Assembly: GCA_030680795.1 (NCBI GenBank)
Contig: JAUXUL010000024.1
Coordinates: 1 to 48,612 of the forward strand
Source of the DNA: Anaerolineales bacterium
GTDB lineage: Bacteria; Chloroflexota; Anaerolineae; Anaerolineales; Villigracilaceae
Reading direction: 5' to 3'
DNA: 48,612 nt
Part shown: piece after piece, positions 41,970 through 46,665 of the stretch
Layout: each line of letters opens with the position of its first letter
Numbering within the stretch: the stretch's first letter is position 1
Translations under genes and position numbers: made by a program
The notes under the pieces: model-generated
The model's database searches: none
What the model saw: the letters and a program-made list of their open reading frames with translations, nothing else
What the model was told of the DNA's origin: nothing

Positions 41970-41975
41970 TATACT
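41970..41975 (+). promoter_or_regulatory. Extended -10 element of the Cas4-like N-terminal gene
   Basis: TGCTATACT (TGn + TATACT). The six bases after the box bring +1 exactly to the A of the ATG at 41982, a leaderless arrangement. Confidence 0.55.
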
Positions 41976-41981
41976 GTGCCA

Positions 41982-42215
41982 ATGCCAATCATCCGCGCTT
42001 CTGAAATTGGAAGTTACCTATACTGCCGCCGCGCCTGGGGGTATCGCAAACAAGGTGTGGAGTCGGAGAATCAAGTTGAACTCGCCGCAGGAACGGAATT
42101 ACATCACCAACACGGACGCACAGTCCTCACATCGTCTCTCTCGCGGGCCTTTGGCCTGCTCCTGTTTCTTGCGGCAATTGTCCTGCTTGTGACATATTGC
42201 ACCGGGCAATCATGA
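41982..42215 (+). CDS. Cas4-like nuclease, N-terminal half with C-terminal membrane helix
   Basis: 77 residues. MPIIRASEIGSYLYCRRAW is the N-terminal signature of Cas4/RecB-type nucleases, with Cys15 where Cas4 places its first Fe-S cysteine. AAGTELHHQHGR (35-46) matches the G...H motif I. The rest of the nuclease is missing; the protein ends in one membrane helix (about 55-72). The missing part, with the metal-binding Asp/Glu/Lys and the other three cysteines, is encoded at 42953-43465. The ATG at 41982 coincides with the predicted transcription start; earlier in-frame starts would lie upstream of it. Confidence 0.7.
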   Translation: MPIIRASEIGSYLYCRRAWGYRKQGVESENQVELAAGTELHHQHGRTVLTSSLSRAFGLLLFLAAIVLLVTYCTGQS

Positions 42216-42225
42216 TCATGTTGAA

Positions 42226-42244
42226 CCCTTCGACAAGCTCAGGG
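42226..42244. repeat. Spacer repeat CCCTTCGACAAGCTCAGGG
   Basis: A short hairpin (CCCT/AGGG ends) of the same kind as the repeat at 21401-21441. It marks the left edge of the DNA separating the two Cas4-like halves. Confidence 0.5.
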
Positions 42245-42278
42245 CATCGCGTTTAAGGTTCAACGATAAGGGTAAACC

Positions 42279-42914
42279 ATGTCTGATTTATTAAAACGTC
42301 TGGCTTATTTACAAACACGTCGTGATAGAACGCCCAATCTCGATTTGGCGCGTGACCTTGTTGCACGAAATGATACAGCAGGCATTCGTGAAATTGCCGA
42401 AAATATGTGGAGTGAAAATAAAAATATTCACTGGGATTGTATTCACGTCATGTATGAGATTGGCGCCATTGAACCAAATCTCATCGCACAATACGCCGAA
42501 GATTTTATAAAACTATTAAAAAGCAGGCATAACAACATGGTCTGGGGCGCAATGACAGCGCTCGCGGAAATAGCCAGGGTCAACCCCGATTTTATTTTCA
42601 AGCATTTGAACGAGATCAAGAAAGCCAAAGAGGCAGGCTCGGTTATCACAATTGACAATTCAATTTCTGCTCTGGCGCACACCGCCGCCGCGAACGAGAA
42701 TTACAACAATGCCATCTTCCCTTATTTGCTCGAGCATTTATCAACCTGCCGTCCCAAGGAAGTGCCGCAACATGCAGAGCGGATATTACCTGCTGTGAAT
42801 GAATCCAATAAAGACGAATTCATCAAAGTCCTCAAAAAAAGAAATGATGACCTTTCCGGCGTGGCATTTACACGTCTGGGCAGAATCATAAGGCTGGCAG
42901 AAAAAATCACGTAA
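42279..42914 (+). CDS. HEAT/ARM-like helical repeat protein
   Basis: 211 residues, almost entirely alpha-helical, with paired helices about every 38-40 residues: DTAGIREIAENMW, HWDCIHVMYEIGAIEPNLIA, NNMVWGAMTALAEIARVNPD, ITIDNSISALAHTAAANE. The repeated pattern W/A-x-x-x-A-L-x-E-I-A fits HEAT/armadillo solenoids, which bind proteins or nucleic acid. No catalytic motif. AAGGG precedes the ATG. It sits between the two halves of a Cas4-like nuclease, either as a partner or as an insertion. Confidence 0.75.
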   Translation: MSDLLKRLAYLQTRRDRTPNLDLARDLVARNDTAGIREIAENMWSENKNIHWDCIHVMYEIGAIEPNLIAQYAEDFIKLLKSRHNNMVWGAMTALAEIARVNPDFIFKHLNEIKKAKEAGSVITIDNSISALAHTAAANENYNNAIFPYLLEHLSTCRPKEVPQHAERILPAVNESNKDEFIKVLKKRNDDLSGVAFTRLGRIIRLAEKIT

Positions 42915-42952
42915 CTACTACTTTCTACTTTTCATCCTTCATCCTTTTTCCC

Positions 42953-43465
42953 ATGCTCTACCTCGCCCTCGTCCTGCTCATCTTCGCCCTCTTCTTTTTC
43001 CGCCGATCCTCAACTCAGCGGAAGGAAGCAGGCTTGCCCGCTGGCCGCATCATCTACACGGATACGCACGGGTGGGGCAAAGTGGAAAAACCTCTTTTCT
43101 ACTCTGCATTGGAGTTGTCAGGCAAACCTGATTACCTTGTCCAGCAAAACGGAAAGATCGTTCCCGTGGAGGTCAAATCAGGCCGCGCGCCGGAAGCGCC
43201 CTACGATTCACATATTTATCAACTTGCGGCCTATTGCCTGCTGGTGGAGAAAACCTACAACATACGCCCGCCGCATGGGATCATCCATTACGAGAACCGT
43301 GATTTCGCCATTGATTACACGCGGGAGTTGGAATCTGCTTTGGTCGAATTACTGGCAGATTTGCGCGCGGATGACCTGAAGGGAGATTTCCCTCGTTCGC
43401 ATGAGCAGGCCTCTCGTTGTAAAAGATGCGGGTTTCGCAATGTCTGCGATCAGAGCCTGGTGTAG
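42953..43465 (+). CDS. Cas4-like nuclease, C-terminal half with N-terminal membrane helix
   Basis: 170 residues. Begins with a membrane helix (2-16) followed by RR, so the rest should be cytoplasmic. The PD-(D/E)xK core is SGKPDYLVQQNGKIVPVEVK (Asp60, Glu73, Lys75), then the RecB-family QxxxY motif (Gln90-Tyr94). The C-terminal CKRCGFRNVC gives Cys156, Cys159 and Cys165, three of the four cysteines of a Cas4 Fe-S cluster. The fourth is Cys15 of the gene at 41982. No cas1, cas2 or CRISPR array is present. No clear ribosome-binding site. Confidence 0.75.
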   Translation: MLYLALVLLIFALFFFRRSSTQRKEAGLPAGRIIYTDTHGWGKVEKPLFYSALELSGKPDYLVQQNGKIVPVEVKSGRAPEAPYDSHIYQLAAYCLLVEKTYNIRPPHGIIHYENRDFAIDYTRELESALVELLADLRADDLKGDFPRSHEQASRCKRCGFRNVCDQSLV

Positions 43466-43546: not shown

Positions 43547-44410
43547 ATGTCTGTGTCCTTCATCCCCAAACGACCTTGTGTCACGGCATATCCGAAAATG
43601 CCTGAAGCCTTTGCAGAAGCAGAAGCCATGTCTGCCTTCCTTAATGAAAAAGGCATGGATGCACCCCATGGTTCTTTGTACGATGAAGAACTTCGCAAAC
43701 GCGTAAAAAAAGGCGAGTTTGATATGCTCATTGTTCTTGGTGGTGACGGCAGTGTCTTACGAGCCGGTCATTTATGTGCGCCAGCTGGCGTGCCGATTTT
43801 AGGTGTGAACCTTGGCAGGCTGGGGTTTCTCATTCAGGTTGACCGCAAGGAATGGCGCGGGTACTTTGAAAAATTATTAAATGGCGAAGCGTGGATCGAG
43901 AACCGCATGATGCTACGCGCCGAACATACCCGCGCTAGCGAGAGTCTTGGTCATTCAAACGCATTGAATGAAGTAGTGGTTGCACGCGGACAAAACCTGC
44001 GCCCCGTTCGGTTGACTGCTTTTGTGGACACTCGTCAACTGACCAGCTATGTGGCAGATGGGTTGATCGCATCCAGCGCCACAGGTTCAACTGCTTATGC
44101 TCTCGCAGCGGGCGGCCCAATTCTGCCGCCGGAGTTGCGTAATATTTTACTGGTGCCCATTGCGCCGCATCTTTCAGTGGATCGCGCTGTTGTTTTATCA
44201 GAAGGATCTTCTGTCAGCATTGTGGTTAAGAGTGAAAACGCCGTTCTCAGTGTGGATGGTCAACCACCGACACCGTTGATGGAAGATGACCGCGTCAATG
44301 TAACTGCCGCCGATGTGTCCGCGCAATTTGTCCGCTTTGGGGACCCGGGATATTTCTATCGCAATATCACTGCTCATATGAACGAAAACTCTTTAGGATT
44401 TCCACGATGA
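43547..44410 (+). CDS. nadK: NAD kinase
   Basis: 287 residues. MLIVLGGDGSVLRAGHL (GGDGS at 65-69) is the catalytic diacylglycerol-kinase-like motif. GVNLGRLGFL, NEVVVARG and DGLIASSATGSTAYALAAGGP follow. It phosphorylates NAD to NADP. The usual ATPTGSTAY reads SSATGSTAY. The gene heads an apparent operon with a B-box membrane protein (4-bp ATGA overlap) and recN (3-bp gap); nadK-recN linkage is common in bacteria. Confidence 0.95.
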   Translation: MSVSFIPKRPCVTAYPKMPEAFAEAEAMSAFLNEKGMDAPHGSLYDEELRKRVKKGEFDMLIVLGGDGSVLRAGHLCAPAGVPILGVNLGRLGFLIQVDRKEWRGYFEKLLNGEAWIENRMMLRAEHTRASESLGHSNALNEVVVARGQNLRPVRLTAFVDTRQLTSYVADGLIASSATGSTAYALAAGGPILPPELRNILLVPIAPHLSVDRAVVLSEGSSVSIVVKSENAVLSVDGQPPTPLMEDDRVNVTAADVSAQFVRFGDPGYFYRNITAHMNENSLGFPR

Positions 44411-44925
44411 CCGATATGACCATTACCTATTGCTATGCTCATCCCACCCGCGAGACCAGCCTGCGTTGCAAACGCTGTGACCGCCCAATGTGTGCATCCT
44501 GCGCTGTGCGGACACCTACCGGCTACGTATGCAGGGATTGCGTCCGTACCCATCAAAAGGCTTTTGATACTGCTATGTGGTACGACTATTTGACAGGCCT
44601 GGGCGTCACCATTATGCTTTCATTGATCACCAGTGCCCTGGTCGCTTTTATCGGGTCTTTCATCGGATTTTTCATGTTCTTCCTTGCGGCTGGCATCGGC
44701 GGCGGCGCAGGAACATTGATCTCAAACCTTACTTTAGCCGTCATTAATAAGCGTCGTTCAAAACCGTTGTTCATCGCCTGCGCAACAGGTGTGGCGCTTG
44801 GCGCTCTGCCGGTTGTGATCGTCCTGCTCTTGACGGGAAATATCTATGGCGTCATCGGTGTGGTCATTTACCTTGTGATCGCAACGCCGCTGGTCTATAC
44901 TCGCATCTCAGGGATTCGACTATAA
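44407..44925 (+). CDS. B-box-type zinc-binding membrane protein
   Basis: 172 residues. The N-terminal zinc module (9-48) reads CYAHPTRETSLRCKRCDRPM, then CASC and YVCRDCVRTH, a B-box-like Cys/His pattern seen in bacterial rhomboid-adjacent proteins. Three to four membrane helices follow (about 65-85, 88-112, 125-150, 150-168). No rhomboid serine protease motif is visible. Function unknown. Translation is coupled to nadK upstream and recN follows 3 bp later. Confidence 0.75.
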   Translation: MTDMTITYCYAHPTRETSLRCKRCDRPMCASCAVRTPTGYVCRDCVRTHQKAFDTAMWYDYLTGLGVTIMLSLITSALVAFIGSFIGFFMFFLAAGIGGGAGTLISNLTLAVINKRRSKPLFIACATGVALGALPVVIVLLLTGNIYGVIGVVIYLVIATPLVYTRISGIRL

Positions 44926-44928
44926 CCT

Positions 44929-46665
44929 ATGCTTACTGAACTCCACATTCAAAATTTTGCCATTATAGATAAACTGGATTTGCGTTTCGGCCCAAGTCTC
45001 ATCATTCTCACAGGTGAGACGGGCGCGGGGAAATCCATCATCCTCGATGCAGTGGTCATGCTCATCGGCGGCAAAGCGGATACGACCTTTATCCGCACTG
45101 ATTCAGAGGCCGCATTTGTTGAGGGTGTGTTCCAGCTTAAGGGCCCAGAAAAAGAGGCGGTACACGAAATCCTGACACGCGAAGAGTTGATGGACGATCC
45201 CAATTATGTGGTGCTCATGCGCGAAGTCCGCAAAGAGGGACGGAGTGTGGCGCGTGTGAATGGCCGTACGGTGAATGTTGGATTGTTGAAGGAACTCGGC
45301 GCATTGTTGATTGACATCCACGGGCAGGCAGAACATTTGTCTTTGCTCGATCTGCGCGCACACCTCGGCCTGCTCGATCGCTACGCGGAGGTTGCGAAAC
45401 CGCTGAATGAGTACCGCCAGACCTACCAGGCCTTGTTGAACTTGCGCCGCGAGCTGAGTGATCTGCAAAAAGCGCAAGCGGATGCAGAGCGCCGCACGGA
45501 AACCCTCACCTATCAGGCTGAGGAAATCGAAGCCGCAAAATTAAAGACCGGCGAAGACCAGGAACTTCGCAAGGAACGCGATAGACTAGCGAATGCCGAG
45601 TCGCTGGCGCAGAATGCACAGGAGGCTTTGGCAGTCCTGGATGAAGGCTCGCCTGAAACACCCGCCGCTACGGATTTGGTTGGCCAGGCCGCGCAGGCCC
45701 TGGCTGCGCTGGCAAAAATAGATGAAGGTCAGGCTGAGTTGGCCAATCAGGCGGAGGTCATGTTGGATACGATCTCTGACATCATCCACGGCTTGCGCGG
45801 TTACCTCGAAGAGATCGAATTCAACCCCAAAAGATTGGAGGATGTTGAAGAGCGTTTGGATCTGATCCATTCGCTCACGCGAAAATATGGCGGCAGTATC
45901 CCTGCGGTGATCGCCTATGGAGTGGACGCGCGCAAGCAATTGGAAACCATCACCGGCGCGGCGGATCGAATCGCTGCGCTGGAAATGCAGGAAGCCAAAC
46001 TGCTTGAAAAGCTTGCCAGGCAAGGCAATACCCTTTCTGAAAAACGCAAATCCGCCGCCGCTGAAATGGTCAAGGGAATTGAGGCTGAACTTAATGACCT
46101 AAAAATGGCATCTGCGAAATTTGGCGTGGACTTCCAAACCAAGCCTGACCCCAACGGCGCGCCGCTTGCAGATGGAACCCGCATCGCCTTTGACCAAAAC
46201 GGCTTCGACCGCGTGGAGTTTCTCGTGGCCCCGAATCCCGGCGAAGGACTCAAGCCGCTGGCAAAGATCGCATCAGGTGGTGAAACCTCGCGTTTGATGC
46301 TCGGTTTAAAGAATGTGATGGCCAATGCAGACGAAGTACCCGCCTTGATCTTCGATGAAATTGACCAGGGTATCGGCGGGCGTGTGGGTATGGTTGTCGG
46401 TCAGAAGTTATGGAATCTCTCGCGCACACATCAGGTCTTTTGCGTGACGCATCTTCCCCAGCTGGCAGCCTTTGGTGACCAGCATTATCAAGTGCAAAAA
46501 ATCGTGGATAATGGCCGAACGCTCACCCGCGTGGAACTGCTTGAAGGCGAACCACGCCTGTTGGAACTCTCGCAGATGCTTGGCGAGGTAGGCGAAGGTA
46601 CGCTCCGCTCTGCGCACGAATTATTGCAGACCGCCAGACAAATGATAAAAAACTCGAAAAAATAG
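44929..46665 (+). CDS. recN: DNA repair protein RecN
   Basis: A 578-residue SMC-like ATPase. It starts MLTELHIQNFAIIDKLDL, the family N-terminus. Walker A is LTGETGAGKSIILDAV (about 26-41), followed by a coiled-coil middle (about 150-390). Signature KIASGGETSRLMLGLK is near 446 and Walker B ALIFDEIDQGIGG near 472. It acts early in double-strand-break repair. A strong terminator follows, closing the nadK operon. Confidence 0.96.
   Translation: MLTELHIQNFAIIDKLDLRFGPSLIILTGETGAGKSIILDAVVMLIGGKADTTFIRTDSEAAFVEGVFQLKGPEKEAVHEILTREELMDDPNYVVLMREVRKEGRSVARVNGRTVNVGLLKELGALLIDIHGQAEHLSLLDLRAHLGLLDRYAEVAKPLNEYRQTYQALLNLRRELSDLQKAQADAERRTETLTYQAEEIEAAKLKTGEDQELRKERDRLANAESLAQNAQEALAVLDEGSPETPAATDLVGQAAQALAALAKIDEGQAELANQAEVMLDTISDIIHGLRGYLEEIEFNPKRLEDVEERLDLIHSLTRKYGGSIPAVIAYGVDARKQLETITGAADRIAALEMQEAKLLEKLARQGNTLSEKRKSAAAEMVKGIEAELNDLKMASAKFGVDFQTKPDPNGAPLADGTRIAFDQNGFDRVEFLVAPNPGEGLKPLAKIASGGETSRLMLGLKNVMANADEVPALIFDEIDQGIGGRVGMVVGQKLWNLSRTHQVFCVTHLPQLAAFGDQHYQVQKIVDNGRTLTRVELLEGEPRLLELSQMLGEVGEGTLRSAHELLQTARQMIKNSKK

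Follow-up and report, generated by a model that had tools for sequence, protein, structure and literature searches.

Can a nuclease of the Cas4 family be made from two separate membrane proteins? The question is raised by a 48,612-nucleotide stretch of DNA, here called the window, which is contig JAUXUL010000024.1 (positions 1 to 48,612, forward strand) of assembly GCA_030680795.1 from an Anaerolineales bacterium of the phylum Chloroflexota. An initial annotation read two short open reading frames (ORFs) of this stretch as the membrane-anchored halves of a single Cas4 whose soluble parts both face the cytoplasm. Both ORFs lie where that annotation placed them (Table 1), and its core reading is supported by the distribution of cysteines over the two proteins, by a model of the halves as one linked chain and by predicted topology. 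The 77-aa protein (N-half) and the 170-aa protein (C-half) probably constitute a two-chain, CRISPR-independent, membrane-tethered Cas4-family PD-(D/E)XK nuclease with shared active and iron-sulfur (Fe-S) sites. Many Chloroflexota appear to make a Cas4-family enzyme from two separate membrane-anchored proteins in this way.

A monophyletic group of solo-Cas4 proteins was described in many Chloroflexi by Hudaiberdiev et al. (2017), in a text which states that all members of the Cas4 family contain a four-cysteine module (PMC5704561). These proteins may be the C-half described here, and the words "split" and "transmembrane" are absent from the main text of that article. A search of the open-licence literature, outside which subscription papers and preprints lie, found no account of a split Cas4 or of its membrane anchors; the passages on Cas4 and Chloroflexi in PMC12669027 and PMC4158269 are unrelated to a split Cas4.

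Motifs, membrane helices and predicted fold of the two halves

The C-half passes Cas4 cut-offs by itself, scoring 46.2 bits against Pfam Cas_Cas4 (PF01930; cut-off 22.7) and 81.7 bits against NCBIfam cas4 (TIGR00372; cut-off 65), of which it covers profile positions 34-178. The N-half falls on positions 2-48 of TIGR00372 (19.6 bits, E 6.4e-4), under the whole-protein cut-off, and matches the equivalent part of six PADLOC Cas4/Cas4d models with E values from 1.7e-4 to 3.8e-3. A Pfam scan gave the N-half no domain, and Pfam and NCBIfam together returned for it the weak Cas4 match and no other domain. Both halves read together in a relative (P0001) score 95.6 against TIGR00372, and one PADLOC Cas4 model spans both halves in a single stretch, residues 5-249. 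In PHROGs, the C-half found three families and no more (E 1.7e-14 to 6.4e-6): two are exonuclease or CRISPR-associated-like, and the third has no assigned function.

The residues on which the initial annotation rested are conserved throughout the relatives. Cys15, Arg17, Gly37 and His41 are invariant in all 84 aligned N-halves, an alignment in which L043 and L060 stand in for L015 and L018, whose N-halves are cut. Asp60, Glu73, Lys75, Gln90, Tyr94, Cys156, Cys159, Cys165 and a few more are invariant in all 87 C-halves. The motif-I histidine of Cas4 is His41 of the N-half, and the four-cysteine pattern of the family, one N-terminal and three C-terminal, is complete only when both chains are counted; no lone half carries all four. 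A further cysteine, Cys95, to which the initial annotation did not refer, stands beside the QxxxY motif in 85 of the 87 C-halves and not at the site of the N-terminal cluster cysteine of Cas4.

In a 45-row profile, the cysteine and GxxxH of the N-half align onto the N-terminal cysteine and motif-I histidine of the Cas4 structures 8d3l and 4r5q, and the C-half aligns with their later motifs. The text of PMC4176176 gives Cys64, Cys200, Cys203 and Cys209 as the cluster ligands of Pcal_0546 (4r5q) and Asp123 and Glu136 as its metal-binding residues, with His94 proposed as an extra ligand; the chain numbering of 4r5q in the profile alignment runs three ahead of the numbering in that article. The N-half residues fall on Cys64 and His94, which would place one of the four cluster ligands and a proposed metal ligand on the small protein and the rest on the large one. 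Judged by their sequences, the two proteins are complementary parts of one Cas4.

The membrane helices seen initially in the window are a near-constant feature of its relatives. With helices called by the Kyte-Doolittle method (19-residue window, at least 1.6), a C-terminal helix is present in all 83 N-halves shorter than 100 aa, a count that leaves out one 150-aa N-half of uncertain start, and an N-terminal helix is present in 86 of the 87 C-halves. Around the N-half helix, lysine and arginine together average 3.17 before it and 0.18 after it; for the C-half helix the averages are 0.13 before and 2.94 after. This positive-inside pattern predicts that both soluble parts lie in the cytoplasm, as had been claimed for the window. 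The cut in the gene is predicted to fall at the outer tip of a helix hairpin, between motifs I and II.

In a relative of the same genus (L009), the two ORFs share a reading frame and are separated by a TAG. The pair was read through, with the TAG taken as glutamine, and modelled with AlphaFold2 from a 45-row alignment (11 read-through, 17 C-half and 17 N-half rows). The resulting model has a pLDDT of 94.0, a pTM of 0.89 and helices at residues 31-79 and 85-107. VIA-align matched it, from residue 1 to residues 250-252, with 7mi4_A (Z 19.7, 181 residues, 2.9 Å), 8d3l_I (Z 18.5), AdnA (7sjr, Z 15.3), EXO5 (7lw7, Z 13.7) and SSO0001 (4ic1_D, Z 13.6). The best Foldseek match was 8d3l_I (E 3.1e-6). 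In this adjacent natural pair, modelled as one linked chain, the halves join in a predicted Cas4 fold over residues 1-252.

A comparison with known nucleases sets the pair apart by its architecture. Like the Cas4 and solo-Cas4 proteins SSO0001, Pcal_0546, 8d3l and 7mi4, it has RecB motifs I, II and III, QhXXY, the cysteine pattern, the fold and a location outside cas loci. In contrast to them, its domain is divided over two genes, with the break between motifs I and II; each half has a membrane helix, and another gene often lies between the two. AddB, AdnA, Dna2 and EXO5 share the nuclease fold (Z 10-15), and most of them have Fe-S cysteines. In them the nuclease domain lies on one chain, usually as part of a larger soluble helicase-nuclease, and to our knowledge none is split or membrane-anchored. 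ACE1 (9iab, 9iac) shares the Cas4 fold as well (Z 11-12) but is a single chain in the PDB entries, and its association with Argonaute is taken from the PDB title only.

Distribution and genomic arrangement of the halves

The two halves occur together. Among 101 genomes (the source genome and 100 relatives), 87 carry the C-half and 85 the N-half, and every genome with an N-half also has a C-half. The two relatives with a C-half only (G008 and G040) have it cut at a contig end, and the fetched loci of this set contain no fused halves. A profile search across 249 class genomes detected a strong C-half in 170 (E <= 1e-25, which dropped 14 weaker genomes) and a strong N-half in 169 (E <= 1e-7, which dropped 2). 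Both halves are present in 166 of them, the C-half only in 4, the N-half only in 3 and neither in 76; G197, whose C-half narrowly misses the threshold at 7.1e-23, is counted as N-half only. For the phylum, 251 sampled genomes gave 103 with a match to the C profile and 64 with a match to the N profile, and many of the C matches are weak and probably represent other Cas4 proteins.

Distances between match ends were taken in 175 genomes, a subset of those with both halves. The halves are at most 150 bases apart in 87 of these and at most 3 kb apart in 49; another 6 have them on one contig at a greater distance or on opposite strands, and 33 have them on different contigs. No genome of the 175 has the halves in one frame (equal open-frame length, spacing a multiple of three) except G351, whose protein reads as an ordinary soluble Cas4. 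The halves are on different contigs in G075 and G088, and in three single-contig genomes they are 387 kb (G328), 434 kb (G320) and 2.8 Mb (G110; 0.5 Mb if the contig is circular) apart. By eye, all three pairs keep the cysteines, GxxxH and the C-half motifs, and distances of this order exclude recoding into one chain in these genomes.

The arrangement is equally varied where both ORFs lie in one stretch. A gene for a HEAT-like protein separates them in 28 of 80 such loci, 15 overlap by ATGA and 4 overlap otherwise; in the rest the halves are 0-30 bases apart (20 loci) or further (13 loci). The contig scan that reached other phyla covered the best 80 of 307 relatives. In the deeper groups f74, f85, f94, f101, f102 and f115, the one genome read from each is split too. 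The split is old and general, with no recent breakage. Two chains had been assumed from the window, and over the sets examined the halves are mostly near each other and sometimes unlinked, with no fused membrane form.

Assembly, activity and role

The architecture is well supported by homology to complementary parts of Cas4, co-occurrence, separate coding, residue conservation, topology and the read-through fold; physical assembly, cluster binding and cleavage are what we infer from it. Each product would insert separately into the cytoplasmic membrane, the N-half by its C-terminal anchor and the C-half by its N-terminal anchor. The two anchors would pair as an antiparallel helix hairpin, and the soluble parts of the chains would form a joint fold in the cytoplasm. 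The composite catalytic centre would combine His41 (motif I) of the N-half with Asp60, Glu73, Lys75 and QxxxY of the C-half, and the composite Fe-S cluster would be held by Cys15 of the N-half and Cys156, Cys159 and Cys165 of the C-half. With ligands from both chains, the cluster would staple the two together, and neither half alone would be a full nuclease. AddAB has been named an iron-staple nuclease (PMC4176176).

By analogy, the activity is most likely that of a metal-dependent single-strand DNA exo/endonuclease. Its role is tentatively placed in CRISPR-independent housekeeping repair or clearance, in which the enzyme would trim or degrade DNA ends on the cytoplasmic face of the membrane, an assignment that we regard as possible and short of probable. 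In the 80 nearest named loci, several of them cut by contig ends, the C-half is followed by NAD kinase in 71 and by RecN in 66, which suggests a housekeeping function and, only faintly, a part in DNA repair; a B-box-like protein follows in 68. A conditional membrane nuclease, in which the bridging cluster is the joint and iron supply or redox state decides whether a cutting site exists, is a doubtful extension of this scheme. The YkuD-type gene found between the halves in 14 families would suit a device that connects the cell-wall side with the clearance of DNA inside the cell.

If the two-chain reading is correct, two membrane proteins each supply part of one nuclease site and part of one Fe-S site, and much of a phylum has retained the two together, sometimes with unlinked genes. 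This would be a natural split-nuclease system, of a two-gene design unusual for a nuclease. It would allow the "iron staple" idea to be put to a concrete test by the removal of one chain and not one cysteine, and it would give a defined function to seek in the solo-Cas4 of Chloroflexota, of which only half the protein would have been known until now.

Several points weigh against this reading. The profile score of the N-half is weak, and the alignments of the N part to solved Cas4 structures are not significant alone (11.9 bits, i-E 1.4; 5.8 bits, i-E 100). The deep lineage L312 seems, by eye, to have arginine at the His41 position, and the near-invariant Cys95 has no role in a composite cluster. 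The fold was predicted as one linked chain, and the linkage may favour docking; the Foldseek superpositions are looser (8d3l_I, TM 0.60, rmsd 6.6). The co-occurrence statistic (Fisher p 6e-55) ignores shared ancestry and is inflated, and the cases on different contigs may partly be assembly breaks. NAD kinase and RecN were found in none of a further 20 loci, most of them more remote (L301-L320). Finally, the text of PMC4176176 reports that cysteine mutants of Pcal_0546 lost the cluster and kept cleavage, while those of SSO0001 were inactivated, so the enzyme may not depend on its cluster.

The alternatives differ in how well they survive. A DNA-entry factor, which would act at the membrane to degrade or trim DNA arriving by transformation or from phage, ranks next after repair or clearance and is somewhat unlikely, and uptake or phage-entry roles are speculative. 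The predicted cytoplasmic position of the soluble parts would suit such a factor, and ComEC is encoded in the source genome and in 223 of the 249 class genomes. ComEC is nearly universal, however, so its presence alongside the pair says little, and both halves occur in 11 of 20 listed genomes that lack ComEC (26 in all). A ComEC-based link to natural transformation is unsupported. Phage records searched with the C-half gave no match and 40 pattern hits in viral contigs contained no confirmed relative, which also speaks against a phage or virus origin.

A second alternative bears on the two-chain enzyme itself. The halves may act apart, the C-half as a nuclease alone or as a homodimer with Cys95, Cys156, Cys159 and Cys165, and the N-half with another partner. 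We consider this improbable. It draws on the Cas4 scores of the C-half alone, on Cys95 as a fourth near-invariant cysteine and on the four class genomes with a strong C-half in which no N-half was found. These are only 4 of 170, however, in a sample where draft assemblies may hide an N-half, and both C-only genomes among the relatives have the C-half at a contig end. Moreover, the motif-I histidine and the N-terminal cluster cysteine, both invariant, are on the N-half, for which Pfam and NCBIfam suggest nothing besides Cas4.

A single broken gene, or a single gene joined by programmed frameshifting or stop read-through, is highly improbable. Among the 52 insert-free loci, 14 do have the halves in a shared frame interrupted by a stop, but the other 38 have them in different frames, 15 overlap by ATGA, and all three stop codons are used. 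In 28 further loci the HEAT gene lies between the halves, elsewhere they are distant or on other contigs, and the catalytic residues are invariant on both sides. On frames, inserted genes, unlinked halves and invariant residues, a broken gene, an assembly artefact and recoding were all rejected.

A CRISPR adaptation Cas4 that became membrane-bound, a reading that family membership alone would favour, is just as far-fetched: the source genome (G000, 97% complete) has no Cas1 match, and a CRISPR role was rejected there; over the 249 genomes the split pair and Cas1 show no association, both being present in 101, the pair only in 65, Cas1 only in 43 and neither in 40 (Fisher p 0.18). Of the 14 genomes whose only C-profile hit is weak, 13 carry Cas1, so these hits look like ordinary CRISPR Cas4. 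The lack of CRISPR context remarked on initially is borne out by the absence of Cas1 and by the non-cas neighbours, CRISPR arrays not having been searched for. Besides NAD kinase and RecN, the neighbours of the window pair include a phosphoribosyltransferase.

Genes between the halves and minor features of the locus

Table 1. Features of the window at and around the two halves, with codon positions of the residues discussed
Feature	Position	Strand	Basis or remark
N-half of putative split Cas4-family nuclease, 77 aa	41982..42215	+	ORF, conserved residues, profile match, C-terminal membrane helix; sequence MPIIRASEIGSYLYCRRAW...AGTELHHQHG..., then membrane helix close to the C-terminus
N-half, Fe-S Cys15 codon	42024-42026		
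N-half, motif-I His41 codon	42102-42104		Gly37 also in this motif region
Interspersed repeat copy	42226..42244	+	Gap between N-half and HEAT ORF; sequence CCCTTCGACAAGCTCAGGG
HEAT/ARM-solenoid protein, 211 aa	42279..42914	+	Between the halves; predicted fold
C-half of putative split Cas4-family nuclease, 170 aa	42953..43465	+	N-terminal membrane helix first, nuclease motifs after; Gln90..Tyr94 also present
C-half, Asp60 codon	43130-43132		
C-half, Glu73 codon	43169-43171		Glu73-Val-Lys75
C-half, Lys75 codon	43175-43177		Glu73-Val-Lys75
C-half, Cys95 codon	43235-43237		
C-half, Cys156 codon	43418-43420		
C-half, Cys159 codon	43427-43429		
C-half, Cys165 codon	43445-43447		
NAD kinase	43547..44410	+	Downstream of C-half; library match
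B-box-like zinc finger with hydrophobic, membrane-like remainder	44407..44925	+	Pfam 23.6 bits, cut-off 24.1
RecN-like (SMC_N) repair protein	44929..46665	+	Library match

The HEAT-like ORF between the halves of the window was absent from the initial annotation. Its model has a pLDDT of 90.1 and finds designed repeat proteins as its top structural matches, with generic HEAT/ARM proteins among the 50 matches listed; Pfam and NCBIfam hits are under cut-off and PADLOC hits are weak. Within the relatives set, one copy lies between the halves in 28 loci, the window included, two tandem copies do so in G009 and G049 (loci L015, L018, L043 and L060), and the gene is always between the halves where all three share a locus. 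Relatives of the HEAT gene in other genera (for example G057, G059 and G073) are located elsewhere.

Outside the family of the window, a different gene takes this place. The gene between the halves was examined in 29 of the 49 genomes with halves at most 3 kb apart, and 27 of these 29 longer-gap loci gave a match to a YkuD-type L,D-transpeptidase. The profile was built from 4 of the 29, which match by construction and were confirmed by Pfam. The 27 loci carry 14 family labels, one of them (f79) outside the class; L153, L277, L279 and L319 are examples. The match is in two pieces in G129, and a hydrophobic N-terminus was read in several of the YkuD-type proteins. In G231 the halves flank an M3 peptidase gene and a second ORF, and G322 has neither a YkuD nor a HEAT match there.

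The N-half ORFs of the deep loci L311 and L312 (f85 and f101), of 149 and 133 aa, show an apparent insertion ahead of the GxxxH region. In the window, a TATACT box read by eye at 41970-41975 lies 7-12 bases 5' of the N-half ATG, and no ribosome-site motif was seen by eye before that ATG, as if the message were leaderless. The box is not among the predictions of the promoter scan, and promoter and terminator scans stayed at chance level. Shine-Dalgarno-like motifs near the starts are at background, with 6 of 87 C-halves and 10 of 84 N-halves set against a background of 9.4%. The repeat CCCTTCGACAAGCTCAGGG, whose copy follows the N-half, gave no match as a reversed control and occurs at 36 places in the source genome with at most one mismatch.

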